Positions 825-37,409 are shown, counted from the stretch's first letter. The stretch: DNA of 64,000 bases from Fibrobacteria bacterium (GCA_025360005.1 JANYDA010000065.1:62001-126000); one strand, 5' to 3'. Numbers and translations are program-made. The notes: generated from the letters alone by a model not told the origin.

Positions 825-1820
825 CTAAACGGTAATGGCGGCAGTCGCCGGCAGCGGCATGGCCCGGCGGCGCAACCCGTCCTTCAACAGGGAAGAGCGG
901 GCGTGTTTTTCCATGGTAATGGGCTCAAAGCTGTTCTTGATATACCCGACCAGGGTATCGAAGAAGGCCAGCTTGTCGCGGGTGTCCAAGTCCATGCCCG
1001 GGAAAAACGACAACTGAGGCACCTTGTCCTTTCCCAGAAAGTCCAGCGGGTGGAGCAACAGTGAAGGCTGCACGCCACGCAGGCGGCAGAGCGCCAGGGC
1101 AGTACGGAAGTAGAGTTCGGCCGCGGGCTTGGAGAACCGCGACAGGTAAAGCACGTAACTCAGGTGGATGGGCGTACGGAAGATGGGCATGGTGGTCACG
1201 GGGATCTCCAGCAGACCTTCGCCTTCTCCCCAGCGGTAGGGCCTCAGCGGCTGGAAGCCGTCGCTGAATTTGCCGAAAAGCCCTTTGCGCTTTTCCTTCT
1301 CGTCCTCCGTGAGATTATCGCTTTTCCAGAAGTAATAGGCCCTGGCCAGCGCTCCGATGAAGGTGGGGAAGGTGGAGGCGTCGTATAGGTAACCGCGGTG
1401 TGACAGTATCTCCAGGGTTTCCCGGCTGAAGCTGAAGCCCGGTCCGCGGAAGCCGATGGGCCTTTTGCCGGTGGCCCTTTCGATGTGGGTTTCCGCCGAG
1501 GCCAGTTCCTCTTCCAGTTCCGACCGGCTATACAGGTGCAGCCAGGGTTCGTGCCGGAAGGAATGGCTGCCGATCTCGTGCCCTTCCGATCCCAGCGCGC
1601 GGAAGGCGCCCGCGTTCTTCTCAAGAGCGGCGTCCTGGCCCACCACGAAAAAGGTGATGGTCATCTTATGCTTGCGCAGCCGCTCCAGCACCACGTCCAC
1701 GAGCGGATCCAGATAGGTGGGATACTCGTCCCAGCCTGCGTCCCCGTGCGTCTTCTGGTAGGACCAGAGATTGTCCATGTCCAGGGATACGCTCATGCCC
1801 GGCTTGGATGGGTTTTTCAT
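825..1820 (-). CDS. polysaccharide deacetylase (NodB/CE4-like), 331 aa
   Basis: Predicted metal-dependent hydrolase removing N- or O-acetyl groups from a polysaccharide. The NodB-type motifs are present: SLDMDN near residues 12-17 supplies the catalytic and metal-binding aspartates, and SHSFRH near 85-90 supplies the metal-binding histidines. A third motif, GFRGPGFSF, follows. No signal peptide is evident. The ATG at 1820 overlaps the stop of the upstream deacetylase-GT fusion as ATGA, which indicates translational coupling. Here the metal ligands are intact, whereas in the upstream partner they are lost, so this member is probably the active deacetylase of the pair. Confidence 0.88.
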   Translation of the reverse strand: MKNPSKPGMSVSLDMDNLWSYQKTHGDAGWDEYPTYLDPLVDVVLERLRKHKMTITFFVVGQDAALEKNAGAFRALGSEGHEIGSHSFRHEPWLHLYSRSELEEELASAETHIERATGKRPIGFRGPGFSFSRETLEILSHRGYLYDASTFPTFIGALARAYYFWKSDNLTEDEKEKRKGLFGKFSDGFQPLRPYRWGEGEGLLEIPVTTMPIFRTPIHLSYVLYLSRFSKPAAELYFRTALALCRLRGVQPSLLLHPLDFLGKDKVPQLSFFPGMDLDTRDKLAFFDTLVGYIKNSFEPITMEKHARSSLLKDGLRRRAMPLPATAAITV

Positions 1821-3553
1821 AGTACCACCTTTTCCGGTTTGGGTACGGGCAGGGACTCTTCGCGCATCGCATCCCGCTGGAGCGCAAGCTTCGCCAGGAA
1901 TCGCAAGTGCAGCCCGATGGTGCGCACGATCTTCATTTTCGATTCGCCCAGTATGCGGGACTCCAGGACGGCGGGATGCTCCACGATGCGGCCGTTGATG
2001 AGCTTGAGGCGGATGAGCATTTCGGCAACGCCCAGGAACCCGGTATTGCGCAAGGGCAGATCGATCATGGCCGCGCGCCGGTATACCCGGCAGCAGCTGG
2101 TGTAGGTGTAGAAGCGTTCGTGGAGGAGCCTGCTGTACATCAGGCTCAGCGTGCGGGAAAGGAAGAGGCGCCACTTGGGCACGTTCACCACGCGGCCCTT
2201 GGGATGGTAAGGCGACGCGGTGACCATGTCCGCATTCTCCAGGAGCGGGATCATGGCCTCCAGCACGGCGGGATCGTAAGAGCAGTCGCAATCGATGGAA
2301 CACACCGTTTCCGTATCCGCTTTCTTGATGCCGGTAAGGATGGCGGCGGCCACTCCCTGATTGGTGCCGTGCCTTACCATGCTGCAATCGCGGAGGCCGC
2401 CGAACTTGGCCGTCAGCCGGTTCCAGGTATCGTCCCGGCTGCCGTCGTCCACCAGGCAGAACTGAACGCGGAAACGGTTTTCCAGCTTCGCGCGGAACTC
2501 GCGCAAAGTCTTGTAGAGGTAGGCGATGCTCTGCTCTTCGTTGTATATGGGTATGACCAGCGTCACCGAAGGCAGGGAGCTCACGTCCACCGTGCCCGGC
2601 AAATCCGCGGCATCGGCGGCTTCCGGCGGCACCCAAGGGCGTCCCGGCTCTTTGGCCAGGCCCAGGTATTCGATGATGGGCTGGAAGCTGTACTTCTTCA
2701 TGTATCCTTCGAGCACCCAGCGCGTCTTGTCCAGATTGCGGTAGTGGCGGATCCGGTTCAACCGCGTGGCGACCTGGATCTGCGGCTGCTTCTTGTCCAG
2801 CTCCCAAGGCATGAAATAGAATACCATCGGGGCGGATTTGTGATGGTTCCAGCGTTCCACCGCCAGCTTGAGCAGGGTATGCGGCAGTTGGCGGATGTAA
2901 TTGCCGCCGGAAATGGCATAGCGGAAACCCATAATGGCGTCGGTGGAAATGGGGAACTCCCAAATGCCGGGACCGCCGTTCTCCGACTTGTGGCGGTGCA
3001 CTTCGTATTGTTCCGGCTTTCCGGCGAACCGGCGCAGCACGGGGTTGATGCTGGAATCGTACAAGTAGCCTTCTTCGGCCAGCACGTCCAGCATCCAGAG
3101 ATCCTTCTCCGTAAGCCAATTGCGCGGCGAACGGTAGCCGATGATATGATGGGCGCCGGCCCATTCCAGAACCTGGCTCGCCCGTTTCAAATCGTCGCGG
3201 AAGTCCTGGGGCACCTTGGAGCGCACGCCGTTGGGCCAATAGCCGGCGCTGCCGATCTCATGTCCCTTGTCAACGATGCCTTTGACCAGGGAGGGGCTTC
3301 TCTCCGCCACCCACCCGGAGATGAAGAACGTCGCCCTTACGTCATGGCTTCCCAACAGTTCCAGGACTTGGGCGATGTTGTGTTCAAGGCGGGACTCCAG
3401 CCGATCCCAATGTTTGCGGGTCAAGGCTCCCTGGAAAGCTCCCACGTGGAAATAATCTTCCACGGATACGGTCAGGATATGGGCTTTCTTTTTGGAAGGC
3501 CCCGGACTGGCATCGGATTCAGACTTGGAATGCATGCTGGCTACCACTCTCAT
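1817..3553 (-). CDS. fusion: XrtA-type polysaccharide deacetylase domain + GT2 glycosyltransferase
   Basis: Two-domain protein of about 578 residues. The first 250 or so residues resemble the PEP-CTERM/XrtA-associated deacetylases (VSVEDYFHVGAF at the start, then a DUF3473-like tail ending WELDKKQPQI...NRIRHYRNLDKT). From about residue 327 a GT-A glycosyltransferase begins (VTLVIPIYNEE, VDDGSRDDTW, SIDCDCSYDP). In the deacetylase half the usual SHGYxH metal site reads SAGYWPN (residues about 102-108), so both histidines are missing and deacetylation is doubtful. The start is ambiguous: ATG 3553, ATG 3535 or TTG 3586, none with a strong ribosome site. It is coupled by ATGA overlap to the intact deacetylase downstream. 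Confidence 0.85.
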   Translation of the reverse strand: MRVVASMHSKSESDASPGPSKKKAHILTVSVEDYFHVGAFQGALTRKHWDRLESRLEHNIAQVLELLGSHDVRATFFISGWVAERSPSLVKGIVDKGHEIGSAGYWPNGVRSKVPQDFRDDLKRASQVLEWAGAHHIIGYRSPRNWLTEKDLWMLDVLAEEGYLYDSSINPVLRRFAGKPEQYEVHRHKSENGGPGIWEFPISTDAIMGFRYAISGGNYIRQLPHTLLKLAVERWNHHKSAPMVFYFMPWELDKKQPQIQVATRLNRIRHYRNLDKTRWVLEGYMKKYSFQPIIEYLGLAKEPGRPWVPPEAADAADLPGTVDVSSLPSVTLVIPIYNEEQSIAYLYKTLREFRAKLENRFRVQFCLVDDGSRDDTWNRLTAKFGGLRDCSMVRHGTNQGVAAAILTGIKKADTETVCSIDCDCSYDPAVLEAMIPLLENADMVTASPYHPKGRVVNVPKWRLFLSRTLSLMYSRLLHERFYTYTSCCRVYRRAAMIDLPLRNTGFLGVAEMLIRLKLINGRIVEHPAVLESRILGESKMKIVRTIGLHLRFLAKLALQRDAMREESLPVPKPEKVVL

Positions 3554-3616
3554 CCCGATTTTCAATGACACTTGCGTAAAATTCAAGGTAATTTATTCTC
3601 ATGCTCTGTGCTTACC

Positions 3617-4651
3617 TCATGCGGAAATGCCGCCCCGCAGCAAAGGGCCTACGAAATTCGCCAAAGGCAGCGGCAAACGCGTCCATAGGGTTTTCATCAT
3701 TCCGAGTTTTCCGGAGGCCGCGTGTCGGACCGCGGATTGCGCTTGCCCCCTAGAGTCGAATTGGTACCAGTGCAACGGCGATTCTTCCGCCAGCCATTGC
3801 TTCTTGAAACGATAAGTGCCTTCCTCTTTGGAGCTCCGGCCGAAATCCACCTGGAGGCATTTCCGCTCGTACGCGAACCGGATACTCTCCCAGTATAATG
3901 CATTGTTGGGGCAATGTACCCGCTCTTCCTTGAGGGTGGAAGCCCAGGGTATGGCGAGCGTGTCCCGCCATAGGATCCGGAACAGACCCCCTATGCAACG
4001 CCCGGCGCGGCGGGCCACTCCTATCTGGGCGCCGGGAAAATGCCTGAGCACGGCGGCAAGGAAAAACTTGGAGTGCACGGGCGAACCCAGATCCCGCATG
4101 TTGACGCAAAAGACCCGGTAAAATTCATCCAGGTTCTCCTCCCGCCCCCAACTGATGCTCACGGCGGATTTCTCCGCCTTCCGGACTTGATTGCGGACTT
4201 TGGCGTCCAGGCTTTTCCAATAGGCGTCGGCGCCGTCGACGGACAAGGGCAGGGTCATCGCCACCTTGATGTTGGGTACGGAGGGAAGTCCGGCCAAGGG
4301 CTGGGAGCAACGCAACTCCAGCCCTGTCTTGCGCGCAAGGGCGCGCGAAAGCAATTCCGCGCGCAACTCGTTCTGCACCAAAGGATCCCCGGCCACGATG
4401 CCGCCATAATCCAGATACGGCAAACAAACCAGGTTTCTGCCGAATAGGATGCCGCTCAGCAAGCAGGCAGGGGCCGCGCCCAGCACTTTTCCGCTGCGCG
4501 GATCCTTCCAACACAGGATGAAGCCCGCTTTCCCGTATCCTTCGCGGAATACGTCCAGCCATGCCGGATCATGGCAGTAGTTCGCGCCGGAATCTCCGGA
4601 GAGGAATTCTTCGTAGGCTAATCGGGATTGCGGCTGGAGTGTTTCGATCAC
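3617..4651 (-). CDS. FemAB-like GNAT-fold protein, XrtA/PEP-CTERM-associated type, 344 aa
   Basis: Resembles the FemAB-related family found beside exosortase A systems: two GNAT-like halves, with LRCSQPL, WKSLDAKVRNQVRKAEKS, the central FCVNMRDLGSPVHSKFF and the C-terminal DFGRSSKEEGTYRFKKQW. Such proteins are thought to transfer an acyl or aminoacyl group in envelope or polysaccharide synthesis; the substrate is unknown. I chose GTG at 4651 because GGAGGGG lies just upstream; the frame extends further to 4732 but without a comparable site. It sits between VanZ and the deacetylase fusion in a minus-strand series. No exosortase gene is visible in the window. Confidence 0.82.
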   Translation of the reverse strand: MIETLQPQSRLAYEEFLSGDSGANYCHDPAWLDVFREGYGKAGFILCWKDPRSGKVLGAAPACLLSGILFGRNLVCLPYLDYGGIVAGDPLVQNELRAELLSRALARKTGLELRCSQPLAGLPSVPNIKVAMTLPLSVDGADAYWKSLDAKVRNQVRKAEKSAVSISWGREENLDEFYRVFCVNMRDLGSPVHSKFFLAAVLRHFPGAQIGVARRAGRCIGGLFRILWRDTLAIPWASTLKEERVHCPNNALYWESIRFAYERKCLQVDFGRSSKEEGTYRFKKQWLAEESPLHWYQFDSRGQAQSAVRHAASGKLGMMKTLWTRLPLPLANFVGPLLRGGISA

Positions 4652-4732
4652 GCTACCCCTCCGCACGGTGCTGCGCCCGAGTTGGAAAGACCATCCATGG
4701 TAGAAAAATCCTGACGCAAAGCAAGCGAGCAA

Positions 4733-5200
4733 TCAGGGTTGGGGGATCCGCCGGAGAGGATCAGCGGTTTGTTTCGATTCCATCCGCGCGATCTGCACCG
4801 CCATGATTCCGCCGAGCAGCGCTCCCCATCCGTTGAGAAAGACATCCAGGAGGGAAGAAAAGCGGCCCGGAATCCAGGCCTGGAGGATCTCCACGCCGCC
4901 GCTCAGACACAGGCCCGCGGCACAGGCGAGAACCAGAGGACGGATCGCGCGCTTTCCGCCCGGAACGCAGCTTGCGATCAGGAAACCGAACGGGATGAAT
5001 AAAAGGAGATTCTGGAACACATCCACCAAGTCCGTAGAGCGCGCATTCGCCAGGAAAATGGCGAAGGAGAACGCCGTTGCGGGCCGGTTTTTTCCGAAAA
5101 TCCCGCCGTGAACGGGACTCAGCGTCACCATGAGAATGCCCGCGGTCACGCTTATGAGGGCGAGTGAGCGGGTGGTGGATTCCAGGTTCAGGAGTTTCAT
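4733..5200 (-). CDS. VanZ-like membrane protein, 155 aa
   Basis: Small integral membrane protein of the VanZ family. It has about four hydrophobic segments and the family signature DVFQNLLLFIPFGFL around residues 59-73, then SGGVEILQAWIPGRFSSLLDVFLNGWGALLGG. Function in this family is poorly known; VanZ itself gives low-level teicoplanin resistance, and relatives are common in exopolysaccharide and exosortase loci. Starts with ATG at 5200. The flanking minus-strand genes (FAD oxidase at 5273, FemAB-like at 4651) suggest the same transcript. A double-domain relative lies at 8565-9860. Confidence 0.85.
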   Translation of the reverse strand: MKLLNLESTTRSLALISVTAGILMVTLSPVHGGIFGKNRPATAFSFAIFLANARSTDLVDVFQNLLLFIPFGFLIASCVPGGKRAIRPLVLACAAGLCLSGGVEILQAWIPGRFSSLLDVFLNGWGALLGGIMAVQIARMESKQTADPLRRIPQP

Positions 5201-5272: not shown

Positions 5273-6484
5273 TCATCCCGCAGCCTTGGCGTAGCGATCC
5301 GCTATCTCGCCGCCGATGGCCAGCGAAGCCGTAGCCGCCGGCGAGGGCGCGTTCAGGACATGCAGGCTGCGCGGCCCTTCCGTAAAAACGAAATCGTCCA
5401 CCAGCGATCCGTCCCGGCGCAAAGCCTGGGCGCGCACGCCTGATCCGGCCGGCGTGAGCATGGAGGCCCGCACCTCCGGCAGCAGCCGTTGCAGGGCCGC
5501 GACGAAAGCGGCCTTGGAGAAAGAGCGATGGAACTCCCCCAGGCCCATGCGCCAATGCTTTACGGCCAGCTTGCGGAACCCGGGATTGGCGAACACTTCC
5601 GCCGTGTCCCTGAGATCCACGTCGCGCTTGCGGTAGCCTTCCCGCTTGAAGGCCAGTACCGCATTGGGCCCGCACTCCACACCGCCGCCTATCATACGCG
5701 TAAAATGCACGCCCAGGAAAGGGAAGGCCGGATCCGGCACGGGATAGATGAGGTTTTTCACCAAGCCTTGCGCGGTAGCGTCCAGATCGTAGTATTCCCC
5801 GCGGAAGGGGACGATGGCCACACCCGGCTCCAGACCGTCCAGGCGCGCCACGCGATCGCTCATGAGACCGCCGCAATTGATGAAGAACGAGGTAACATAT
5901 TCGTTACCGACGGCTTTCACAATCTTTTCCCCGGGGTAGCCGCGCATGGATTCCACCTTGCTGCCCAGCAGGATTTCCCCGCCCAGCGCGCGGATCTTTT
6001 CCGCCATCTTTTCCGACACCTTAACGTAGTCGACGATGCCGGTCTCCGGCACATGCAGGGCCTTACGGCCCGCCATGCCGGGCTCGTAGCGGGCGAAGTC
6101 CCCCGGTTCCACCACCGTCACGCCCCGGAGCCCATTGGCTTCCGCGCGCCCGCGCAAGGCTTCCAGCTGGGGCAATTCCGCCTCGGAGACCGCCACCACC
6201 ACCTTGCCGCAAATATCATGGGGCAAGGCGTTCTCGCGGCAGAAGGCCACCATCTCCGCGTAGCCGCGCCGGCACAACAGGGCCTTGTAGCTGCCGGGCT
6301 TATAATAGATGCCCGAGTGGATGACCCCGCTGTTATGGCCGGTCTGGTGGCGCGCTACCCCGCCTTCCTTTTCCAGCAGGCGCACCTTGCGATCCGGGAA
6401 GCGCGCCAGGATCTTCAAGGCGGTGGCCAGGCCCACTATCCCGCCGCCCGCTATCAGCACATCGCTTCGGCTATCCGCGCTCAT
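5273..6484 (-). CDS. lhgO: L-2-hydroxyglutarate oxidase-like FAD enzyme
   Basis: 403-residue FAD-dependent oxidoreductase of the DAO superfamily. The N-terminus carries the dinucleotide fold (DVLIAGGGIVGLATAL, residues 8-23), followed by RHQTGHNSGVIHSGIYYKPGS, the characteristic LhgO motif around the flavin. Further matches are VPFRGEYYDL and GVHFTRMIGGGVECGPNAVLA. LhgO oxidises L-2-hydroxyglutarate to 2-oxoglutarate and passes electrons to the quinone pool. Its place inside a surface-glycan series is odd; it may be co-transcribed by chance or act on another 2-hydroxyacid. Length is as expected for the family. Confidence 0.87.
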   Translation of the reverse strand: MSADSRSDVLIAGGGIVGLATALKILARFPDRKVRLLEKEGGVARHQTGHNSGVIHSGIYYKPGSYKALLCRRGYAEMVAFCRENALPHDICGKVVVAVSEAELPQLEALRGRAEANGLRGVTVVEPGDFARYEPGMAGRKALHVPETGIVDYVKVSEKMAEKIRALGGEILLGSKVESMRGYPGEKIVKAVGNEYVTSFFINCGGLMSDRVARLDGLEPGVAIVPFRGEYYDLDATAQGLVKNLIYPVPDPAFPFLGVHFTRMIGGGVECGPNAVLAFKREGYRKRDVDLRDTAEVFANPGFRKLAVKHWRMGLGEFHRSFSKAAFVAALQRLLPEVRASMLTPAGSGVRAQALRRDGSLVDDFVFTEGPRSLHVLNAPSPAATASLAIGGEIADRYAKAAG

Positions 6485-7406: not shown

Positions 7407-8558
7407 ATGGCCCCGCCGAACGCTCCCGCGCCCAAGGCGCTGAGCATCATCATCCCTTGCTATAACGAGGAAAGGACCCTGGCCGCTTGCGTGGCCAAGG
7501 TCTACGAGATAGCGGATCGGGATTTGCGGCTGGAAGTGATCCTGGTGAACGATTGCTCCCGGGACAAGAGCCTGGAAATCGCGCAAGGCCTGGCCGGCCG
7601 CTACCCCGGACTGACGGTGCTGAGCCACGCCAAAAACCGCGGCAAGGGCGCCGCGCTGCGGACGGGTATCGCCCAGGCTACGGGCGACTACGTGGCCATC
7701 CAGGACGCCGATCTGGAGTATTCGCCGCAGGATCTCCGCCGGCTGCTGGGCCCTTTGATCCGGAACGAGGCGGACGTGGTGATCGGTTCCCGCTTCCTTT
7801 CCGCCGAATGCCATCGCGTGCTCTACTTCTGGCACTCGCTGGGGAACCGGTTCCTCACTTTGCTTTCCAACATGCTTACGGACCTCAACCTCACGGACAT
7901 GGAAACCTGCTACAAGGTGTTCCGCCGCGAAGTGATCCAGGCCATCGAGATCCGCGAAGACCGGTTCGGTTTCGAGCCGGAGGTGGTCGCCAAGATCGCG
8001 CAGATGCGCTTGCGCGTGTACGAGATGGGGATCTCCTACCACGGGAGAACCTATGCGGAAGGCAAGAAAATCGGCCTGAAGGACGGCTGGCGGGCGCTCT
8101 ATTGCGTGCTCAAATACAATCTTCACAAAACGCCCGCGCCCATCCAATTCCTTTTCTACCTGGGCGTGGGCGGCACGGCCGCGGCCGTCAACCTGGGGCT
8201 GTTCCTGGCGCTGGTGGCCGCCGGGACCGGTTTCACCTGGGCCACGCCCGTCGCTTTCGCGGCTTCCGCGGCTTGCAACTATTGGCTTTCCGTAGCCATC
8301 CTCTTCCGACATCGCGCGCGCTGGAGCGCGCCCCTGGAATCGGCTTTATTCCTGTTTGTGATCCTGGTGATGGGCGCTTTCGATTTCCTGGTGACGCGGT
8401 TCTGCCTGGAGGGCGGCGCCTCGCCCGGAGAAGCCAAGACCATCGCCATCGTCCTGGGGCTGTGCCTCAATTTCCTGGCCCGGCGTTTCATCGTCTTTCC
8501 GGAGCCGAGCAATCCGGATTGGAATCCGCAGGCGAAGCCGGACCCGCCGCCCGCCTGA
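7407..8558 (+). CDS. bifunctional GT2 glycosyltransferase / GtrA-like membrane protein
   Basis: 383 residues. The N-terminal 240 form a dolichol-phosphate-mannose-synthase-like GT2 domain: [51 protein letters not shown]. The C-terminal 130 residues form a four-helix GtrA domain ([20 protein letters not shown] onward). Such proteins transfer a sugar from a nucleotide donor to polyprenyl phosphate and may help flip it across the inner membrane. Start ATG 7407 follows a weak GGAGGAATAGCGC site. Convergent with the double-VanZ gene (8565); only six bases separate them. The neighbouring DprE-like operon makes a polyprenyl-phosphate sugar, so the two could belong to one pathway. Confidence 0.9.
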
Positions 8559-8564
8559 ACGGGT

Positions 8565-9860
8565 TCAGACCTGGCGATCCCCGTCCTGGTGCATGTATTC
8601 GCGGAAGGCCGGCCATCCGCGCGTCAGCGCCAGGCTTCCCGCCGCGGCGCCCAAGATTGATCCCAGCACATCGGTGATGTCCGGATAGCGGCCGGGCACA
8701 TATCCCTGCCCCACCTCCACCAAAAAGGCCATCGCGCCCGCCACGATTGCCGCCGCCCGGGCCGGCCGGGAGCGCGGGAAAAAATACCCCAGCAGGAATC
8801 CCACCGGGAAGAAGGTCATGGAGTTGTCCACGAAATCGCTTATGGAGGCGAAGGTGCTCCACCCGTACCGCGGCATGAACAATACCCAGTTGAAGCCGGA
8901 GAAATGATCGGTAAAGGCGAAGGGATAGTAGGCGCGCGCCGCCGCCGACACCAGGATGGCGATGCCGCCGGCCCAAAGCCAGAACCACGGGCGCCGATGG
9001 AATCCGGGGAAGAAATAAATGATGCCGCCGCAAACCGCTCCCAGCACGGCCACCAGGGCATCCTGCACTTCCGGGGTGCGCGACTGCACGATGATCTGGC
9101 ATAGCTCCAGTCCCGCGCCAAGCACGCCTACCAGCAGGGCGCCCAGAAGCGCAGGCCGGCGGGCGCCTATCTCATGAAGCAGACGGCTGACGAAAAGGGC
9201 CGTCAGCAGAAAACGGATGAAACTGATGACATCGTCGTCCGGCCGTTTGAATTGCCAGGGATGTTCCAGCAGCGGCCGGACATGGTTCCAGACCACTCCG
9301 ATGTCCAGGGAGAAATCGAAAGGCTCCAGGCACCCGGCTACGCTCAGGATCAGGAATACCAGGGCCGGGAAGGCGGATTCCGAGTCCAGCACGCGGCGCG
9401 CCAGGGGATGCGATTTGAATCCGAGCACGGATTTCTTGAGGACCACGCCCGCGGCCAGCCCTGCCGCGGTCCCCAGCGTATTGAAGATCACGTCCGAGAG
9501 GGCGGGGTAACGCGTGGGCGAGAAGATCTGCAGGAACTCCACCGACGCGCTCAACAACGCGCCCGCCAGCACGATGCCGATCTTGTTTGCGCCGGATCGC
9601 TTGTAGATGAGCGAAAAATAACCCAGGAATCCGAAAGGGATGAAGAGCAGGATATTCTGGAGGATATCGGAAACGATGAGGTTACCCGCGACTCCGCCCA
9701 GGGGACGCCAATTGATGCGCCGGGATTCGTTCAGGAATTGGCCCCAGTCCAGGTTGAACTGGAAAGGAAAGGTGGTCCCATACACCACGAACAGGGAAAA
9801 AAGGACCCACAACAGGCGCGCGGTGCTTTTGCGGGGAATGTCGGAAGCAGGCTGGGCCAT
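8565..9860 (-). CDS. VanZ-family membrane protein with two VanZ domains, 431 aa
   Basis: Internally duplicated VanZ protein. The first domain has VSDILQNILLFIPFGFLGYF followed by LSASVEFLQIFSPTRYPALSDVIFNTLG; the second has ISDFVDNSMTFFPVGFLLGYF and FLVEVGQGYVPGRYPDITDVLGSILGAAAG. A partially conserved stretch between them (LGAGLELCQIIVQSRTPEVQDALVAVLGAV) may be a third, degenerate unit. Roughly ten or more membrane segments. ATG 9860 was chosen because the family similarity starts there and the ubiA-like stop is at 9866, five bases away. Last gene of the dprE1-dprE2-ubiA operon. Function unknown; a role in envelope or polymer biogenesis is inferred. Confidence 0.85.
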   Translation of the reverse strand: MAQPASDIPRKSTARLLWVLFSLFVVYGTTFPFQFNLDWGQFLNESRRINWRPLGGVAGNLIVSDILQNILLFIPFGFLGYFSLIYKRSGANKIGIVLAGALLSASVEFLQIFSPTRYPALSDVIFNTLGTAAGLAAGVVLKKSVLGFKSHPLARRVLDSESAFPALVFLILSVAGCLEPFDFSLDIGVVWNHVRPLLEHPWQFKRPDDDVISFIRFLLTALFVSRLLHEIGARRPALLGALLVGVLGAGLELCQIIVQSRTPEVQDALVAVLGAVCGGIIYFFPGFHRRPWFWLWAGGIAILVSAAARAYYPFAFTDHFSGFNWVLFMPRYGWSTFASISDFVDNSMTFFPVGFLLGYFFPRSRPARAAAIVAGAMAFLVEVGQGYVPGRYPDITDVLGSILGAAAGSLALTRGWPAFREYMHQDGDRQV

Positions 9861-9865
9861 GGGAA

Positions 9866-10762
9866 TCAAGGCCAAGATAACAAGCCCGCCCCCGCGGCCA
9901 CATAGGCTATGCAGATGAGCAACAACGCCGGATCCTTGCGCACGTCGGCTACGGTGTTTTCCCCGTAGCCTTTTTCCATCACCAGGTACAGGTAGCGGAA
10001 CAAGCCGAACATGGCTATGGGCAAGGTGTAGATTAGACGCGTGCTCCCATGCACCTGGATGGTGCGCGCGCTGGTGGTATACAGGCCGTAAGTCATGAGC
10101 GTGGCGGCCAGGGTGACGGCCATGAGCATCCGCAGGAACTCGGGAGAATAGTTTTTGAGCACGGCCCGCTTGGCTTCCAAGGGCCTTTGCCCATCGCTCA
10201 ATTCCGCGTAGCGCTTGGAGAAGCCCAGGAACAGGCTCAGGTTCAGGGTGCATAGCAGGAACCATTGGGAAGGCTCCACGCCAATCCCCCAGGTGCCCGC
10301 CAACAGGCGGATGATGAATCCGGAGGCGATGCAGAAGACGTCCACCAGCACCACGCGCTTGAGCGCGCGCGAATACAGGATGTTGGCGCCCGCATAGGCG
10401 GCCAGGCACGCGGCCAGGCGCGGACCCGCGCACAGGCTTACGCCCAAGGCGCCCGCTCCCAGAGCGCAGGCCAAGGCATAGGCGGCGGGGATCTGGATTT
10501 CCCCGGCGGCCAAGGGCCGCAGGCGTTTGCGCGGATGCGCCCGATCCTCTACCACGTCCAGCGCGTCGTTCACGCAGTAGACCGCGCTGGCGGCCAGGCA
10601 GAAGGCCGCGAAAGCCGCAGCCGCCATCAGCAGCGCTGCCGGACTTTTCCAATCCCCCGCGAAGAATACGCCCGCCAGCACGAACGCGTTCTTGGTCCAA
10701 TGGGAAGGCCGCGCCAGGGCAAGCCAGGCGCGCCATGCCGGGCGCGGGGAAGCGGCGTTCAA
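9866..10762 (-). CDS. UbiA-family prenyltransferase, decaprenyl-phosphate phosphoribosyltransferase-like
   Basis: 298-residue polytopic membrane protein. The first aspartate-rich motif NDALDVVEDRAHPRKRLRP (residues 65-83) has the form seen in Rv3806c/UbiA, which joins phosphoribosyl pyrophosphate to decaprenyl phosphate. The second site lies near SKRYAELSDG. About eight or nine transmembrane helices. Its start overlaps the SDR stop as ATGA (10759-10762). Together with the adjacent DprE1- and DprE2-like genes it gives the core of decaprenylphosphoryl-beta-D-arabinose synthesis. The prenyl chain and exact sugar in this organism are not known. Confidence 0.87.
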   Translation of the reverse strand: MNAASPRPAWRAWLALARPSHWTKNAFVLAGVFFAGDWKSPAALLMAAAAFAAFCLAASAVYCVNDALDVVEDRAHPRKRLRPLAAGEIQIPAAYALACALGAGALGVSLCAGPRLAACLAAYAGANILYSRALKRVVLVDVFCIASGFIIRLLAGTWGIGVEPSQWFLLCTLNLSLFLGFSKRYAELSDGQRPLEAKRAVLKNYSPEFLRMLMAVTLAATLMTYGLYTTSARTIQVHGSTRLIYTLPIAMFGLFRYLYLVMEKGYGENTVADVRKDPALLLICIAYVAAGAGLLSWP

Positions 10763-11502
10763 AACTTCAGCTTCCGGAAAATGGGCGAAGGAATGGCCTT
10801 AATGATCAGCATGATCCATTTCCAGAACCACGGCGTATAGATCTCTTCCCGTCCGGCCCGCAGCGCTGCCACGATATCGCGAGCCACCCGTTCCGGTTCC
10901 GCCGTCAACCCGCTCCGCAATCCCGCCGTCATGCGCGTGCGTACAAAGCCCGGCTTGATGGTTTGGACCAGCACACCCGTTCCCGCCAGGCGATGGCGCA
11001 ATCCGTCCAGGTAGGCCGTGAGCCCGGCCTTGGAGGCCGCATAGGCCAGCACCTTGCCGCGCCCGCGCTCTCCGGCCACGGAGGACACGCAGCTGATGAA
11101 TCCTCCCTTCTTTTCCCGGAAATGCGCCGCGAACAGATCCAGGATGATGGCCGGGCCGGTGAGATTGGTATCGAAGGTAAGGCGCGTCTTGGCCGCGTCG
11201 CCATCGCATTCATCCTGCGGGAACTGGATACCGGCCGCCAGGAACACGCCCTTGAGCGCATGGGCCGCGGCCAGTTCCCGGAATTTCCCCGCATGTCCGG
11301 CATGATCGAGCACGTCCCAGATCATGCAGGCCGGCTTACGCCCGCCGGCCTTATGCAATCCCTCCGCCTGTTCCGCCAAGGCCGCGCCGTCCCGCCCCAT
11401 CAGGATCAAATCTTCGCCTTCAGCCGCCAGGCGCTCCGCCACCGCACGCGCTATCCCGGAAGTGGCGCCAATCACGGCGATGCCTCCCGTTACCCCTTTC
11501 AT
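10759..11502 (-). CDS. SDR oxidoreductase, DprE2-like (decaprenylphosphoryl-2-keto-ribose reductase)
   Basis: 247-residue short-chain dehydrogenase. GATSGIARAVAERL near residues 12-25 binds the nucleotide; the catalytic set is CVSSVAGE and YAASKAGL (Tyr and Lys four apart). The C-terminus, FWKWIMLIIKAIPSPIFRKLKF, resembles the DprE2 tail. In mycobacteria DprE2 reduces the keto intermediate made by DprE1, completing epimerisation of the ribose to arabinose. The ATG at 11502 overlaps the stop of the DprE1-like gene as ATGA. Assignment rests as much on the DprE1 and UbiA neighbours as on sequence, since SDRs are hard to tell apart. Confidence 0.85.
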   Translation of the reverse strand: MKGVTGGIAVIGATSGIARAVAERLAAEGEDLILMGRDGAALAEQAEGLHKAGGRKPACMIWDVLDHAGHAGKFRELAAAHALKGVFLAAGIQFPQDECDGDAAKTRLTFDTNLTGPAIILDLFAAHFREKKGGFISCVSSVAGERGRGKVLAYAASKAGLTAYLDGLRHRLAGTGVLVQTIKPGFVRTRMTAGLRSGLTAEPERVARDIVAALRAGREEIYTPWFWKWIMLIIKAIPSPIFRKLKF

Positions 11503-12860
11503 CGCCGCCACAACTCCAGCCTTTCCGCCATGCGTGAATTGCAAAGCGCTTCCGGATTGTAGCGCCGCACCGTGTCCATCCACTCCCCGCTTTCCGGGTA
11601 CATGGCGCGGAAGGTTTCCGCCGGCAGGCGCGCATCCTTGGTCAGGTACACGCGGCCGGCGTAGCCCAGCACCAGTTCGTCCAGGCCCCGCAGTAACCGT
11701 AATGTTACCTCGCCGCGGAAAGGGATGTCCAGCGCCAGCGTGTAGCCGCGCTTGCAGAACGGCAGCATCACGGTGTCCTCCCCGCAGCGCTTCAGCACCG
11801 AGAGGAAGGCCCCCAGGCGCTTCTCGCTCAGGTAGACCAGCACCGCGGCCATGCCCGCCTCCCCGCGCGGATCGGGGATGGCGCATTGGTATTGCAAAAA
11901 GCCGGGCTTCCCGTACAAGAGGTTCCATGCCCGGATGCGATCAAGGGGATAGAAGAACCCTTCCAGGCCTTCCCGGGTGGCGCCGCGGCGGGAGAAGCCG
12001 TAGAAGGCCCGGTTGCAGGCGGAAAGGAAGGGCCTGTTCAGGAACGCGCGCGGAAGTGCGAACGGCACCCCCAGCTTGCGCGCGTCCGCATGCTCCAGGG
12101 CGGCCGATTTTTCCTCGCCCCGCAATGGCGCATGGTTTCCCAGCATCAGGATGCCGCGCCCCAGCTTGCGCCCGCGCGCCAACGTATCCAACCAAGCTAC
12201 GGAATATTCGTAGCCGGCGTCGTGCCGGGAAAGCAGGCCGAACAGAGCGTCCAGGCCGGAGGCGCGCAGGCGCAGGCAATCGAGGCGGGCGGTTTCGATG
12301 GGCTTGAGGCGCAGCTTGGCGCGCGTGATGAATCCCGTCAGTCCGTATCCCCCCACCGTGGCGCGGAATAAATCCGCATGCGCCTGCGGCGAGCAGACGA
12401 AGTGGCCGGCCGGCGTGGCCACTTCCGCTTCCAGGATGAAATGCTCCAGAGATCCGCAATGATGGTGATTCTTGCCGTGCACGTTGCTGGCGATGGCGCC
12501 CCCCAGGCTCACGAACATGGTGCCCGGAGTGACCGGCAGAAACCAGCCGCGCGGGATGGCTATGCGCAGGATGGCGTGCAAGGTGACGCCGGCCTCCGCG
12601 TCCACCACGCCGGAAAGGGGGTTGAAGGAAAGGAACCTATCGAGCCGGTATGAATTGAGGGAGCGATGATCGGCGGCGGGCAGGGCCGCGTCTCCGTAGC
12701 TCCGTCCTTGCCCCCGCGGCAGATAGGGCTTTGCGGTCAAGGCTGCAATCTCGCCGGAAACGGCCGGGGCGGTTTGCTCCGCCGTCACGCTGGGATAGCG
12801 GCCCCATCCCGAAATAGGCTGGCGGGGAATCCTCTGCGGCTGGTGTGGCCTTACCGTCAC
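11499..12860 (-). CDS. FAD-binding oxidoreductase, DprE1-like (decaprenylphosphoryl-ribose 2-oxidase)
   Basis: 453 residues with the vanillyl-alcohol-oxidase-type FAD domain: LPRGQGRSYGDAA (residues 47-59) and the DprE1 hallmark SNVHGKNHHHCGS (about 125-137). The C-terminal substrate domain ends in MYPESGEWMDTVRRYNPEALCNS, also typical. DprE1 oxidises the 2'-hydroxyl of polyprenylphosphoryl ribose. Start is GTG at 12860 without a clear ribosome site; no better in-frame start is visible. First gene of the four-gene operon running to 8565, with ATGA overlaps to dprE2-like and from there to ubiA-like. Confidence 0.9.
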   Translation of the reverse strand: MTVRPHQPQRIPRQPISGWGRYPSVTAEQTAPAVSGEIAALTAKPYLPRGQGRSYGDAALPAADHRSLNSYRLDRFLSFNPLSGVVDAEAGVTLHAILRIAIPRGWFLPVTPGTMFVSLGGAIASNVHGKNHHHCGSLEHFILEAEVATPAGHFVCSPQAHADLFRATVGGYGLTGFITRAKLRLKPIETARLDCLRLRASGLDALFGLLSRHDAGYEYSVAWLDTLARGRKLGRGILMLGNHAPLRGEEKSAALEHADARKLGVPFALPRAFLNRPFLSACNRAFYGFSRRGATREGLEGFFYPLDRIRAWNLLYGKPGFLQYQCAIPDPRGEAGMAAVLVYLSEKRLGAFLSVLKRCGEDTVMLPFCKRGYTLALDIPFRGEVTLRLLRGLDELVLGYAGRVYLTKDARLPAETFRAMYPESGEWMDTVRRYNPEALCNSRMAERLELWRR

Positions 12861-31834: not shown

Positions 31835-32524
31835 ATGGCATTTAGGCAACGACAAGTCCTGGCTCTTGTACCAGCCAGGGGCGGCTCCAAAGGGGTAAAG
31901 CGTAAAAACCTGCGCACTGTCAAAGGAAAGCCATTGGTCGGACATACGCTGGAAGCAGCCCTGCTATCCGAACGCGTGGACAAAGTCTATTTGTCTTCCG
32001 ATGATGACGAAATCCTGGGCTTAGGACGTTCCATGGGAGTCGAAGCGTTCAAACGCCCGGAGGCAGTTGCAAGCGATTCAGCCACCGCAACGGAAGTCGT
32101 TTTCAATTTCATCGGCAGGCTTTCTCCCACCGACATAGCTGGCAATCCTTTCATTGTCTATCTTCAACCGACCTCGCCTATGAGGAACGCGGGGCATATC
32201 GATGCCGCCTTCTCTGAAATGGAATCCCGGAATGGATCCCAGGCGATGAGTGTCGTGGAGCTTAAAAAGACGCCCTATAAGTCGTTCATCCTTTCCCAGG
32301 ATGGCCTTTTGCAATCTCTTTTCGAGCAAAAGCTCTCGAATTCAAACCGTCAGACCCTGCCCGCGGCCTATTATCCGAATGGCGCGATTTATATCTTTCC
32401 GGTTTCCGAATTCCTCAAAAAAGGCGGCTTTCCTTCCAACGGGAGCGTACCTTTTATTATGTCCGAAAAAGAAAGTATTGATATCGATACCGAAGATGAT
32501 ATCGCAATGATGGAAAAATTATGA
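31835..32524 (+). CDS. CMP-nonulosonate synthetase (NeuA/LegF family), 229 aa
   Basis: Activates a nonulosonic acid (sialic, legionaminic or pseudaminic type) as its CMP-sugar. Signature LALVPARGGSKGVKRKNL (residues 9-26) is the CTP site; YLSSDDDEIL, YLQPTSPMRN and YYPNGAIYIF follow, with IDIDTEDDI at the end. A possible promoter (TTCACG 31733, TATATT 31757, 18-bp spacing) lies upstream. The ATG has no clear ribosome site. The stop overlaps the next gene as ATGA. Family members cannot be told apart by substrate from sequence alone. Confidence 0.9.
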   Translation: MAFRQRQVLALVPARGGSKGVKRKNLRTVKGKPLVGHTLEAALLSERVDKVYLSSDDDEILGLGRSMGVEAFKRPEAVASDSATATEVVFNFIGRLSPTDIAGNPFIVYLQPTSPMRNAGHIDAAFSEMESRNGSQAMSVVELKKTPYKSFILSQDGLLQSLFEQKLSNSNRQTLPAAYYPNGAIYIFPVSEFLKKGGFPSNGSVPFIMSEKESIDIDTEDDIAMMEKL

Positions 32525-33567
32525 CGCCAGAACTGATCATTAAGGGTCGCCGGATTGGCGCTGACCATCCGCCCGTCGTGATTGCCGAAATCGGCATCAA
32601 CCATGAAGGCAGCCTTAAAACCGCAATAGCGATGGCGGATGCGGCCATTGATGCGGGCGCCGAAATCGTAAAACATCAAACGCATATCGTCGAAGACGAA
32701 ATGTCGGACGAGGCCAAATCCGTCATTCCCGGCAATGCCGACGTCTCCATTTATGAAATCATGGATCGATGCGCACTTTCCGAGGCGGACGAGAAAAGCC
32801 TTATGGATCATGTCCATCGCAGAGGCGCGATTTTCATCAGTACCCCGTTCTCGCGCGCCGCGGCGGAAAGACTCGTCAAATTCGATATTCCCGCTTTCAA
32901 GATCGGTTCAGGGGAATGCAACAACTACCCTTTGATCAAACATATCGCACGCGCCGGCAAACCCATCATCATCAGCACCGGCATGAATACCATCGATTCC
33001 ATACGGCCCTCGGTTGAAATCCTCCGCCAAGCCGGCATTCCCTACGCTCTGCTACACTGCACCAACGTATACCCCACGCCCCCGGAACTGGTTCGATTGG
33101 GGGCCATGACCAAGCTGCAAGAGGCTTTCCCCGATGCGGTTGTCGGACTTTCCGACCATACCACATCCAACTACACTTGCCTCGGCGCCGTTTCGCTAGG
33201 TGCCGCCATCCTGGAGAGACATTTCACCGATCGCATGGATCGCCCTGGGCCGGATATCATCTGCTCCATGGATCCTGCGGCCCTCTCCAACCTCATCGAA
33301 GGGTCGAAAATCATTTGGTCCGCCCGAGGCGGAGAAAAAACCGCCGTCGCCGCGGAAGCGCCTACCATAGCTTTCGCGTTCGCTTCCGTGGTGGCCATCA
33401 GGGACGTTGCGCCAGGACAAACCCTTTCAGAGGAAAATATCTGGGTTAAGCGACCGGGAGGAGGCGACTTCAACGCCCTCGACTATGAGTCTTTGCTCGG
33501 CAAGGTAGCCCGTAACAAGATTGCGCGGGGCTTCCAGATCAGGAAATCCGATCTCAACCTTGGTTAG
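32521..33567 (+). CDS. N-acetylneuraminate/legionaminate synthase family (NeuB/LegI)
   Basis: 348 residues: a TIM barrel condensing phosphoenolpyruvate with a 6-carbon aminosugar to give a nine-carbon nonulosonic acid, plus a C-terminal SAF (antifreeze-like) domain (about 290-345, VVAIRDVAPGQTLSEENIWVKRPGGG). Key stretches: IAEIGINHEGSLKTA, FKIGSGECNNYPLIKHIA, IISTGMN, LLHCTNVYPTP, GLSDHT and ERHFTDRMDRPGPDIICSMD. The SGECNNYP and DRPGPDIICSMD stretches recall LegI-type synthases more than plain sialate synthases; this is from memory of the family. Overlaps neuA-like by ATGA. Confidence 0.9.
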   Translation: MTPELIIKGRRIGADHPPVVIAEIGINHEGSLKTAIAMADAAIDAGAEIVKHQTHIVEDEMSDEAKSVIPGNADVSIYEIMDRCALSEADEKSLMDHVHRRGAIFISTPFSRAAAERLVKFDIPAFKIGSGECNNYPLIKHIARAGKPIIISTGMNTIDSIRPSVEILRQAGIPYALLHCTNVYPTPPELVRLGAMTKLQEAFPDAVVGLSDHTTSNYTCLGAVSLGAAILERHFTDRMDRPGPDIICSMDPAALSNLIEGSKIIWSARGGEKTAVAAEAPTIAFAFASVVAIRDVAPGQTLSEENIWVKRPGGGDFNALDYESLLGKVARNKIARGFQIRKSDLNLG

Positions 33568-33569
33568 GA

Positions 33570-34733
33570 ATGGAACGCATCAAACAATATAAAGTGATGT
33601 TCCTGACGGGGACGCGCGCCGATTTCGGCAAGATGAAGACGCTTATGCTCAAGCTACAGGCGGACGATCATTTCCAGGTGCACATTTTCGTGACGGGGAT
33701 GCACATGCTCTCCAAATTCGGTTCCACCTGGGACGAAGTGCGCAAAGCGGGCCTGCCCAATATATACCGCTTCATCAATCAGAATGAAAACGATTCCATG
33801 GATCAGGTTCTTGCGAAAACCGTCGCCGGCCTCTCCGATTATGTCAAGGAAATGGCCCCGGACATGATAGTCGTGCATGGAGATCGGGTGGAGGCACTTT
33901 CGGGTGCGATCGTGGGTTCGCTTAATAATATCCGGGTCTCTCATATCGAGGGCGGGGAGGTTTCCGGAACCATCGACGAGCTGATCCGGCACGCGGTCTC
34001 GAAAATGTCGCATATCCACTTCGTTTCTAACAAAGTCGCGATGACGCGCTTGATCCAACTCGGCGAAGCGGAGGAATCCATCCATATCATCGGTTCACCC
34101 GACGTCGATGTGATGAATTCAAAGAACCTTCCCGATATGCCCGAGGTGAAGCGGTATTACAATATCCGTTTTTCGGAATACGCGATTCTGCTGTTCCACC
34201 CAGTCACTACCGAAATCAAGGACATCCGCAGGCAAGTGACCGAATTGGTGGATGTCGTTCTCGCTTCCAACCAGAATTTCGTGGTCCTCTACCCTAACAA
34301 TGACCACGGAACTGAAATCATCCTGGAAGCGTACGAACGCCTCCGCGGCGCTCCCCGTATCGCCATGTATCCTTCTATGCGGTTCGAATACTTTCTGACC
34401 TTGATGAAGAACTCCTTGTATATCATGGGAAATTCGAGTTCCGGCATCCGGGAAGCGCCCCATTTCGGCGTACCGACCATTAATCTAGGCTCTAGGCAGA
34501 ACAACCGCGTGTCCACCGAATCGGTGCTAAACGCGCCCATAACCTCCGAAGGCATTCAAAATGCCATGCGGGAAGTAGGGCGCATTCCCAGGGTCGCAAA
34601 GGAGCTGTTCGGCAACGGAAACAGCGCTGCCGCTTTCCACCAAGCCCTGTTGAATCCCTCCATCTGGAGCACAGAAACTCAGAAATATTTCATCGACCGT
34701 TCCCATTTCAAGCTGAACGGCAAGGAAAATTGA
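33570..34733 (+). CDS. hydrolysing UDP/GDP-sugar 2-epimerase (NeuC/LegG family)
   Basis: 387 residues of the GT-B-like UDP-GlcNAc 2-epimerase fold. FLTGTRADFGKMKTL near residues 11-25, VHGDRVEALSGAIVGSL, HIEGGEVSGTIDELIRHAVSKMS, HFVSNKVAMTRL, GSPDVD and MGNSSSGIREAPHFGVPTINLG. The hydrolysing members release ManNAc (NeuC) or 2,4-diacetamido-trideoxymannose (LegG) for the synthase. Two bases after the NeuB-like stop. Supplies the substrate of the preceding synthase. Confidence 0.9.
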   Translation: MERIKQYKVMFLTGTRADFGKMKTLMLKLQADDHFQVHIFVTGMHMLSKFGSTWDEVRKAGLPNIYRFINQNENDSMDQVLAKTVAGLSDYVKEMAPDMIVVHGDRVEALSGAIVGSLNNIRVSHIEGGEVSGTIDELIRHAVSKMSHIHFVSNKVAMTRLIQLGEAEESIHIIGSPDVDVMNSKNLPDMPEVKRYYNIRFSEYAILLFHPVTTEIKDIRRQVTELVDVVLASNQNFVVLYPNNDHGTEIILEAYERLRGAPRIAMYPSMRFEYFLTLMKNSLYIMGNSSSGIREAPHFGVPTINLGSRQNNRVSTESVLNAPITSEGIQNAMREVGRIPRVAKELFGNGNSAAAFHQALLNPSIWSTETQKYFIDRSHFKLNGKEN

Positions 34734-34766
34734 AATGGCGAACATTGATACAATCGAGGCATCCCG

Positions 34767-35972
34767 ATGAGCAAGGCATTTTTCGGTTTGCCGGAACAGG
34801 TAATCTTCTGCAAAAAATGCGTGATATCCAACCAACGACCAAGTTCCACGGTTGAATTCAAACACAAAAAGAATGAAAAGAAGGCGACCATAGGCTTCGG
34901 CGCGGACGGCATCTGCGATGCCTGCAAGTTTCAGGCGACCAAGGAAAGCCAAATCAATTGGCAGAAACGGGACGAGGCCCTGCGCGAATTGGCCGCCAAG
35001 CACAAGCGGAGCGACGGCGGATACGATGTCATCGTGCCGGGAAGCGGCGGCAAGGATAGTGCGTTCACGTCTCATATCCTCAAGTACAAATACGGCATGA
35101 ACCCCCTTACCGTGACCTGGGCTCCTCATAAGTATACGGAAATCGGCTGGAAGAATTTTGAGAATTGGATCCATGTCGGCGGACACGACAACATCCTTTT
35201 CACCCCCAACGGAATCCTGCACCGTTATCTGACCCAACAAGCATTCCTTAATCTTTTGCATCCTTTTCAGCCCTTCATAGTCGGCCAGCGCATCATCGGG
35301 CCGGCCATGGCGGCAAAATTCGGGGTCAAGCTCGTCATGTACGGCGAGAACCAGGCGGAATACGGCAACAACCCGGACGATAATTACATCCCGACCATGG
35401 ATCGGAAATTCTTTTCGGTAGGCAATCCCGAGGAGATGATCCTAGGCGGCAAACCGATCAAGGACATCCTCGCGGAGAAGCGTTTCGAGCTCAATGATTT
35501 CGCGCCTTATATCCCGCCCAGCGCGGACTTCCTGGAAAGTAAAGGCGTGGAAGTGCATTACCTCGGCTACTATCTCCGTTGGGATCCGCAGGAATGCTAC
35601 TACTATGCCGTCGAAAACACGGGGTTCCAGGCGAACAGCGAGCGCACGGAAGGGACATACTCGAAATACAGCAGTATCGATGACCGCATCGATATGTTCC
35701 ACTACTATACCACGCTGATAAAGTTCGGTATTGGACGCGCCACCTATGACGCCGCACAGGAAATCCGCAATGGAAAAATCTCGCGGGAAGAAGGGGTTGG
35801 TTTGGTCAAGCGCTATGATCAGGAATTCCCCAAAAAATATTACCAGGAGTTTCTGGAATACATCGGCATCTCGGAATCGCAATTCAACGAGACCGTCGAC
35901 CAATTCCGATCACCGAATCTCTGGGAAAAAAAGGCCGACGGGTGGCGGCTCAAACATACCGTCTGGCAATAA
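34767..35972 (+). CDS. N-acetyl sugar amidotransferase (WbpG/PseA family)
   Basis: 401 residues. ATP-pyrophosphatase loop PGSGGKDSAF (about 91-100) and two cysteine pairs (CKKCVISNQRP; CDACKF) that likely bind zinc. Family members use ammonia, often from HisH/HisF-like partners, to turn an N-acetyl group into an acetamidino group, as in WbpG for P. aeruginosa O5 and PseA/PtmG in Campylobacter flagellin sugars. The HisF and HisH genes directly downstream fit this. The likely target is the nonulosonic acid of this cluster or its precursor, by context. Confidence 0.9.
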   Translation: MSKAFFGLPEQVIFCKKCVISNQRPSSTVEFKHKKNEKKATIGFGADGICDACKFQATKESQINWQKRDEALRELAAKHKRSDGGYDVIVPGSGGKDSAFTSHILKYKYGMNPLTVTWAPHKYTEIGWKNFENWIHVGGHDNILFTPNGILHRYLTQQAFLNLLHPFQPFIVGQRIIGPAMAAKFGVKLVMYGENQAEYGNNPDDNYIPTMDRKFFSVGNPEEMILGGKPIKDILAEKRFELNDFAPYIPPSADFLESKGVEVHYLGYYLRWDPQECYYYAVENTGFQANSERTEGTYSKYSSIDDRIDMFHYYTTLIKFGIGRATYDAAQEIRNGKISREEGVGLVKRYDQEFPKKYYQEFLEYIGISESQFNETVDQFRSPNLWEKKADGWRLKHTVWQ

Positions 35973-35991
35973 AGCGGGGAAGGGACATATC

Positions 35992-36756
35992 ATGAGTCGC
36001 GTCCGTTTTATCGCCCGAATGGACATCAAAGGACCCAACCTAATCAAAGGCATCCATCTTGAAGGCCTCAGGGTCATCGGTGATCCCGGAGAGTTCGCCC
36101 GCCTGTACTACGAGCAGGGCATTGACGAAATCGTATACATGGACATAGTGGCTAGCTTATATGGCCGTAACAGCCTTCATGATATCGTCCGCCGCACGGC
36201 CAATGACGTTTTCGTCCCCCTTACCGTGGGCGGCGGAATTCGTTCGGTCGACGATGTCCGGGAGCTTTTACGCGCGGGCGCGGACAAGATCGCCATCAAT
36301 ACGGCAGCCATCAAGAACCCGGACCTGATTCGCGAAATCGCGCATGTCTTCGGATCCCAATGCCTGGTTCTTTCCATAGAAGCCAAGCGGCAAAGAAAGG
36401 GATCCTGGGAAGCTTATACGGACAATGGCCGTGAAAAAACGGGCTTAGACGTCATCGATTGGGTGCGTAAAGGCGTTGAAATGGGCGCAGGGGAAATCAT
36501 GATCACATCGGTGGATCAAGAAGGGACGCGCAAGGGATTCGATATCGAACTGGTTCGGGCCGTCAGCGATACCGTCTCCATCCCCGTTATCGCCAGCGGA
36601 GGCATGGGCATGGTGGATCACCTTGTCGATGTTGTGGCTCGGGGACATGCAGATGCGGTAGCCGTCGCCGATATCCTGCACTATAAACGCTCCACCGTTC
36701 CTGAGATACGCACGGCTGCCATTGCCGCGGGCGTGGCATTGAGACACACCCCATGA
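35992..36756 (+). CDS. hisF: HisF-like cyclase/ammonia-channel subunit, 254 aa
   Basis: Imidazole-glycerol-phosphate synthase cyclase-type TIM barrel. The catalytic aspartates are seen in FIARMDIKGPN and MITSVDQEGTRKG, with the phosphate site VGGGIRSVDDVRELL and SGGMG. In surface-glycan loci such paralogues (WbpI neighbours, ptm genes) serve the sugar amidotransferase rather than histidine synthesis; no other his gene is present here. ATG 35992 with AAGGGACATATC upstream; a longer open frame to 35731 is rejected because it overlaps the amidotransferase. The stop overlaps hisH as ATGA. Confidence 0.9.
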   Translation: MSRVRFIARMDIKGPNLIKGIHLEGLRVIGDPGEFARLYYEQGIDEIVYMDIVASLYGRNSLHDIVRRTANDVFVPLTVGGGIRSVDDVRELLRAGADKIAINTAAIKNPDLIREIAHVFGSQCLVLSIEAKRQRKGSWEAYTDNGREKTGLDVIDWVRKGVEMGAGEIMITSVDQEGTRKGFDIELVRAVSDTVSIPVIASGGMGMVDHLVDVVARGHADAVAVADILHYKRSTVPEIRTAAIAAGVALRHTP

Positions 36757-37400
36757 ATGCCGATGTAGTTATCATCGACTACGGAATCGGGAACCTGTTC
36801 AGCGTTCGCCGGGCCTTCGAGCATTGCGGAGCCGACGTTTTGGTGACCAGCGATCCGGAAATCCTCTCAGCGGCGCCCCGCCTCGTATTGCCCGGAGTCG
36901 GCGCTTTCGCGGACGGAATGCGGGGGCTTATCGATAGAGGCCTCGACGGAGTAGTGAAAGCCTATGCGGACTCGGGGAGGCCTTTATTGGGAATCTGCCT
37001 GGGCATGCAGATGCTGGCTAGCACGAGCGAGGAGTTCGGCGAACATGCTGGCCTCGGAATCATTCCGGGGCGAGTCGCCTCTATCCCCCGCAACGACCCT
37101 GAAGGCAAACCCTATAAAGTCCCCCACGTCGGTTGGGCGGATTTACGTTCTCGGGCTTACGAAACGGACTGGCACGGATCGATCCTCGATGGCTTAAAGC
37201 CGGGCGACGCGATTTATCTCACCCATTCTTTTGCGGTGAATCCCTCGAATCCTGCGCATTTGCTGGCTTATTGCGAATACAATGGAGCAGAGGTGACTTC
37301 CGCGATCCGCAACCGGAACGTTTACGGCGTGCAGTTCCATCCGGAAAAAAGCGGCCCAGTTGGCTTGAAGATCATCGCGAATTTCGCGAAAGCCGTTTAG
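36753..37400 (+). CDS. hisH: HisH-like glutamine amidotransferase, 215 aa
   Basis: Class I glutaminase releasing ammonia. VIIDYGIGNLFSVRRAFE at the start, catalytic Cys in LLGICLGMQML and His/Glu in VYGVQFHPEKSG. Expected to form a heterodimer with the HisF-like product and feed ammonia to the sugar amidotransferase. Overlaps hisF by ATGA. Confidence 0.92.
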   Translation: MNADVVIIDYGIGNLFSVRRAFEHCGADVLVTSDPEILSAAPRLVLPGVGAFADGMRGLIDRGLDGVVKAYADSGRPLLGICLGMQMLASTSEEFGEHAGLGIIPGRVASIPRNDPEGKPYKVPHVGWADLRSRAYETDWHGSILDGLKPGDAIYLTHSFAVNPSNPAHLLAYCEYNGAEVTSAIRNRNVYGVQFHPEKSGPVGLKIIANFAKAV

Positions 37401-37409
37401 CGTGAATCC

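Follow-up and report, generated by a model that had tools for sequence, protein, structure and literature searches.

Can an uncultured Gram-negative-type bacterium make a lipid-linked arabinose donor, and does a VanZ protein take part in this process? These questions are raised by a four-gene operon of a Fibrobacteria bacterium (GCA_025360005.1), located in a stretch of 64,000 nucleotides that was analysed as a whole (JANYDA010000065.1:62001-126000; hereafter the window). The operon encodes homologs of the FAD oxidase DprE1 and the reductase DprE2, a UbiA-fold polyprenyl-phosphate phosphoribosyltransferase, and a membrane protein with three VanZ domains (VanZ3). Judging from the encoded proteins, we consider it likely, with a probability of roughly 0.85, that the operon makes polyprenyl-phosphate D-arabinofuranose from phosphoribosyl pyrophosphate (PRPP), the carrier probably being undecaprenyl phosphate. 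The pathway is known and the lineage is new; the one feature out of the ordinary is the triple VanZ protein in the operon.

All four genes lie on the minus strand, and their reading frames were found where the preliminary description of this DNA had placed them. The dprE1 gene (11499..12860; GTG start) encodes a protein of 453 aa with a Pfam FAD_binding_4 domain. It is adjoined by the dprE2 gene (10759..11502), which overlaps it by ATGA and encodes a short-chain dehydrogenase/reductase (SDR) of 247 aa (Pfam adh_short). The ATGA coupling described for all three enzyme genes holds for this junction but not for the next one, where the overlap is TTGA, so that the UbiA gene (9866..10762; 298 aa) starts with TTG. 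As described, only five bases (TTCCC) separate its stop codon from the ATG of the VanZ3 gene (8565..9860; 431 aa; Pfam VanZ). Orthologous operons are present in five further genomes of the genus, with amino acid identities of 63-80% (DprE1) and 52-71% (VanZ protein), and the operon is therefore more than a chance arrangement. The DprE1-DprE2-UbiA set is kept in these five genus mates, save for the operonic DprE2 in one of them (G089).

The UbiA protein passed the cut-offs of two NCBIfam PRK12324 equivalogs for decaprenyl-phosphate phosphoribosyltransferase (DPPR synthase), with scores of 247.3 (cut-off 234) and 221.5 (cut-off 207), versus 18.8 bits for 4-hydroxybenzoate polyprenyltransferase. 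It also matched the structure of Rv3806c (PDB 8j8j) with an E-value of 3.6e-35. The expected NDxxDxxxD motif is present as NDALDVVED, together with KRxxE, and the former occurs in 74 of the 75 UbiA relatives of the DprE1 loci that we examined. In Citrobacter youngae ORF15, residues N247, D248, D251, and D255 are needed for full activity, while the R366A and E369A mutants are still functional (PMC11127046); all four of these important N/D/D/D residues are present in the UbiA protein of the operon.

For DprE1, the NCBIfam DprE1 equivalog gave 336.8 bits over residues 14-450, the next family reaching 35.7 bits. The nearest solved structures are those of mycobacterial DprE1 (PDB 4aut and 4fdn; E-values 3e-65 to 4e-63), to which the blocks HGKNHH, QYQ, and KD align; the first of these lies in the VHGKNHH motif that had been noted before. 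The protein would be expected to oxidize polyprenyl-phosphate ribose. The preliminary description had named two misassignments that would speak against the pathway, namely an FAD protein grouping with unrelated VAO-family oxidases and a UbiA protein grouping with quinone prenyltransferases. Neither was found, since DprE1 matches the solved DprE1 proteins best and the UbiA protein passes the DPPR-synthase cut-offs.

We then asked how widely such loci occur. A scan of species genomes yielded at least 575 confirmed DprE1 relatives, from which 80 loci were retained, and further relatives were found in 87 plasmid records. Within 6 kb of DprE1, 97 loci contained DprE2 in 89 cases, UbiA in 74, and GtrA in 23; a HAD domain was fused or adjacent in 46 of them. 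The examined loci span about 20 phylum-level groups. Moreover, UbiA-type polyprenyl phosphoribosyltransferases have been reported by Kelly et al. (2024; PMC11127046), with DprE1/E2 homologs where bacterial glycans hold arabinofuranose (Araf), including in Gram-negative systems. Given this wide spread and the published work, the pathway was already known outside Actinobacteria, and its presence there is not the oddity that it had been taken for. In a DprE1 tree of 97 rows (built by a quick method, with SH-aLRT support only), the Fibrobacterota family of the window forms one clade (support 100) among non-actinobacterial DprE1 proteins, apart from the Mycobacterium tuberculosis DprE1, which groups with Actinomycetota (support 99). 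DprE1 was detected in 12 of 151 sampled Fibrobacterota genomes and in two families only, the window's genus being represented by six genomes and its sister genera by four. The second family (f4; loci L018 and L020 in genomes G091 and G088) differs in that DprE1 and DprE2 come after a HAD-UbiA fusion, and its DprE1 groups with Pseudomonadota sequences; two kinds of DprE set are therefore present in the phylum.

The enzyme identities, together with a host that belongs to an uncultured Fibrobacterota genus and is hence of the Gram-negative type, bear out the earlier proposal of a polyprenyl-phosphate pentose donor. From the enzymes identified by sequence, we infer the following product, flipping, and use. 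The pathway would start from PRPP through the UbiA-type polyprenyl-phosphate phosphoribosyltransferase, and the 5'-phosphate would be removed by a phosphatase encoded elsewhere. DprE1 would then oxidize C2 using FAD, and DprE2 would reduce the keto intermediate with NAD(P)H to give the arabinose donor. This donor may be flipped, after which an unlinked GT-C enzyme would use it for the arabinosylation of an envelope glycan. We propose dephosphorylation, flipping, and transfer as presumptive steps because no linked phosphatase, no conserved linked flippase, and no linked GT-C was seen.

Several observations weigh against the arabinose-donor assignment. The DprE1 score is below the equivalog cut-off of 500 bits, as are those of all 12 Fibrobacterota DprE1 matches. 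DprE2 has its best NCBIfam match in PRK07102, an unnamed SDR family (241.9 bits, below its cut-off), and only its second-best in the DprE2 equivalog (151.3 bits, below the cut-off of 250). Both proteins are therefore claimed as homologs with the same expected reaction and not as curated equivalogs. Furthermore, the UbiA frame of G089 directly follows DprE1 with no DprE2 between them (L027:10279-10300). No 5'-phosphatase (HAD PRP or PAP2) is fused or adjacent to the operon, unlike in the 46 loci mentioned above; no conserved linked flippase lies near it, with MATE and SMR not searched genome-wide; and no GT-C was recognized in the DprE neighborhood, although the search for such a pentosyltransferase suggested earlier returned two unlinked PMT_2-type GT-C proteins in the genome. 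The missed cut-offs and the unnamed SDR family could be taken to mean that an unrelated VAO oxidase, a generic SDR, and a quinone prenyltransferase are neighbors by chance. This is barely credible for a UbiA protein above the DPPR-synthase cut-off, a DprE1 scoring about 300 bits over every other VAO family, and an enzyme trio that recurs in about 20 phylum-level groups. The gene arrangement of G089 might instead point to another pentofuranose as the product, such as polyprenyl-phosphate ribose or its 2-keto derivative. We regard this as very unlikely, because DprE2 is kept in the remaining five genomes of the genus as well as in most of the 97 loci, and DprE1/E2 homologs have been assigned to Araf-containing glycans (PMC11127046). 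Production of the arabinose donor therefore remains our preferred interpretation.

Candidates for the unlinked steps were also inspected. With a profile derived from Bacteroidota operons, a search for PRP-type HAD phosphatases found one HAD-IB gene in 11 of the 12 genomes, not beside DprE. Its nearest family is TIGR01490, with a score below the cut-off, and it is probably generic because genomes with a fused HAD-UbiA have it as well. The PAP2 candidates were three genes, one of them a DedA-PAP2 fusion, all unlinked to the operon. A GT2-GtrA fusion gene (7407..8558, plus strand; Pfam GT2 and GtrA) does face the operon, as noted earlier, and converges on the VanZ3 gene. It encodes the only GtrA in the window's genome; however, it is unlikely to be a general flippase of this system, since four of the five genus mates have no GtrA. 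Near the DprE operon, the gene is absent in all five mates, so that it looks like a species-level insertion. In the sister-genus genome G029 (L022), UbiA and DprE1-DprE2 are about 9 kb apart and on different strands, and UbiA is divergent from a gene for a 511-aa protein with multiple transmembrane segments and no family match, a possible GT-C. This candidate was rejected, as no homolog of it was found in the other eleven genomes.

We next turned to the VanZ protein. Pfam VanZ (PF04892) matched three separate stretches of the 431-aa protein with a total of 126.2 bits, so that the protein has three VanZ domains and not two as previously described. It lies within the DprE operon in all six genomes of the genus and is probably a co-transcribed membrane protein. 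In domain 1, Asp65, Asn69, Glu108, Gln111, Arg117, Asp123, and Asn127 are invariant in all six proteins, while domains 2 and 3 are degenerate, keeping ExxQ but having lost the helix-4 Asn. For VanZ-1 family members of the Lipocone superfamily, an enzymatic action on polyprenyl-lipid or phospholipid head groups has been predicted (PMC12419801). Domain 1 resembles them in its helix-2 Asn, helix-3 ExxQ, helix-4 DxxxN, and four long modeled helices; three tandem domains, two of them degenerate, are a difference from that family. The AlphaFold model of domain 1 had a pLDDT of 87, and that of the whole protein, with a pLDDT of 55, was not used. A Foldseek search of the domain 1 model against the PDB gave no match below an E-value of 1.6, and the Lipocone fold, whose solved members include PTDSS1/2, is thus not confirmed for this domain. 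By its residue pattern, VanZ3 may act on polyprenyl-linked head groups, which does not make it a demonstrated step of the arabinose-donor pathway. The UbiA and VanZ3 genes are separated in four of the five genus mates by a homolog of the window's FemAB gene (see below), and VanZ3 is directly followed by an L-2-hydroxyglutarate oxidase (L2HGO) gene in all five. A 428-aa multi-VanZ relative is encoded in G050 (L137:6700-7986), two genes after a MurG-like protein according to our own reading; no DprE1 was found in this genome.

Does VanZ3 work in the pathway, or is it a neighbor of different origin? As a pathway part, it might remove the 5'-phosphate, or release or transfer the pentose phosphate, thereby replacing a phosphatase or transferase. 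Its constant membership in the operon, the match of the Asp, Asn, ExxQ, Arg, and DxxxN residues of domain 1 to the VanZ-1 active-site pattern (PMC12419801), and the lack of a dedicated phosphatase linked to the operon would agree with such a role. However, VanZ was found in none of the 90 other DprE1 loci (up to 10 kb on each side, less on short contigs), and related multi-VanZ proteins are present in Fibrobacterota genomes that have no DprE1 match. In addition, dephosphorylation should come before flipping, but the predicted orientation of the Lipocone active site is toward the outer leaflet. The sister genus provides a further argument: single-domain VanZ genes lie in the orders SDR2-UOXN-VanZ-L2HGO (G029) and SDR2-UOXN-cytc-VanZ (G025) with no DprE there, and in the window's genus the same UOXN, cytc, SDR2, and L2HGO genes are found on the flanks of the DprE operon. 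The VanZ gene thus belongs to a neighborhood that exists without DprE, and a role as a pathway part appears unlikely. In the alternative scenario, an older VanZ-L2HGO-UOXN-SDR2 neighborhood became joined to the DprE trio and the VanZ domains were triplicated, the protein acting in a general way of its own on lipid-linked intermediates. We give this scenario an even chance. Against it, gene order is rearranged and not collinear between the two genera, and within the genus the operon order persists even where VanZ identity falls to 52%, as if these genes were selected to stay together. On balance, the evidence favors a neighbor over a pathway step. The link between VanZ and pentose use that had been proposed is therefore weak, being confined to one genus, and a dedicated one is not established, given the 90 loci without VanZ and the sister-genus VanZ genes away from DprE. 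We found no paper on VanZ beside DprE1; DprE1 is unmentioned in the Lipocone paper (PMC12419801), as is VanZ in the pentofuranose paper (PMC11127046). It is quite unlikely that VanZ3, as an enzyme of polyprenyl head groups, has taken over an arabinose-donor step (5'-dephosphorylation, carrier release, or arabinose-phosphate transfer) in this genus; if so, a concrete substrate could be assigned to a VanZ protein.

Beyond the GT2-GtrA gene, the window contains an L2HGO gene (5273..6484, minus strand; NCBIfam NF008726, 536 bits, cut-off 299), a second, single-domain VanZ protein of 155 aa (4733..5200, minus strand; Pfam VanZ, 50.6 bits), and a FemAB/GNAT protein of the XrtA/PEP-CTERM type (3617..4732, minus strand; TIGR03019, 218 bits, below the cut-off of 260). 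The DUF3473 deacetylase-GT2, FemAB, and VanZ genes at 1817-5200 fit an exosortase/XrtA-type locus. Such a locus was observed to the left of the window (G000:C20:23574-24362), with a PrsT-like TPR protein, an O-glycosylation-ligase-like protein, and an XrtA-type GT. The contig that carries the operon also has an exosortase with XrtA/PEP-CTERM-type genes, at a distance of about 46 to 50 kb; in G083 and G077, this distance is about 47 to 61 kb. Exosortase is present in all six genomes of the genus, while the sister-genus and f4 genomes all lack it but do have DprE1; the arabinose-donor pathway is hence independent of it. At 31835-38561, genes for a CMP-transferase, NeuB, a 2-epimerase, a 401-aa protein without a Pfam match, HisF-like and HisH-like proteins, and a pyruvyltransferase stand in a row, which suggests that a surface glycan contains a modified nonulosonic or acetamidino sugar. 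A scan with a defense-system library gave no matches.

Overall, these results add an uncultured Fibrobacterota genus to the bacteria with a lipid-linked arabinofuranose pathway, which is best known as a drug target in tuberculosis; the neighborhoods and tree show the breadth of its spread. They also offer a testable setting for VanZ proteins, namely an operon that is found across a genus and encodes a polyprenyl-sugar pathway.

Compared with the mycobacterial Rv3790 (DprE1), Rv3791 (DprE2), and Rv3806c (DPPR synthase), the operon has three homologous enzymes for the same reaction series, with active-site blocks that align; in contrast, it has no adjacent Rv3807c-type phosphatase, Rv3789, or Emb/Aft transferases. 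According to the alignment, the position of Cys387, to which benzothiazinones bind in mycobacterial DprE1, is occupied by Ala in the DprE1 of the operon. Alphaproteobacterial UbiA-GtrA-DprE1-DprE2 modules, such as the one beside the nod genes of Sinorhizobium alkalisoli, share the same enzyme trio but contain their own GtrA gene and no VanZ, and in R. leguminosarum a HAD domain is fused to UbiA, unlike in the operon described here. The Gram-negative three-component pentofuranose systems (C. youngae ORF15/14/12; P. aeruginosa PSPA7_6246; PMC11127046) likewise have a fused HAD phosphatase in C. youngae ORF15, which lies near a MATE flippase and a GT136 transferase, none of them linked in the Fibrobacterota operon; what these systems have in common with it is the UbiA-type polyprenyl phosphoribosyltransferase and, where Araf is added, DprE1/E2.

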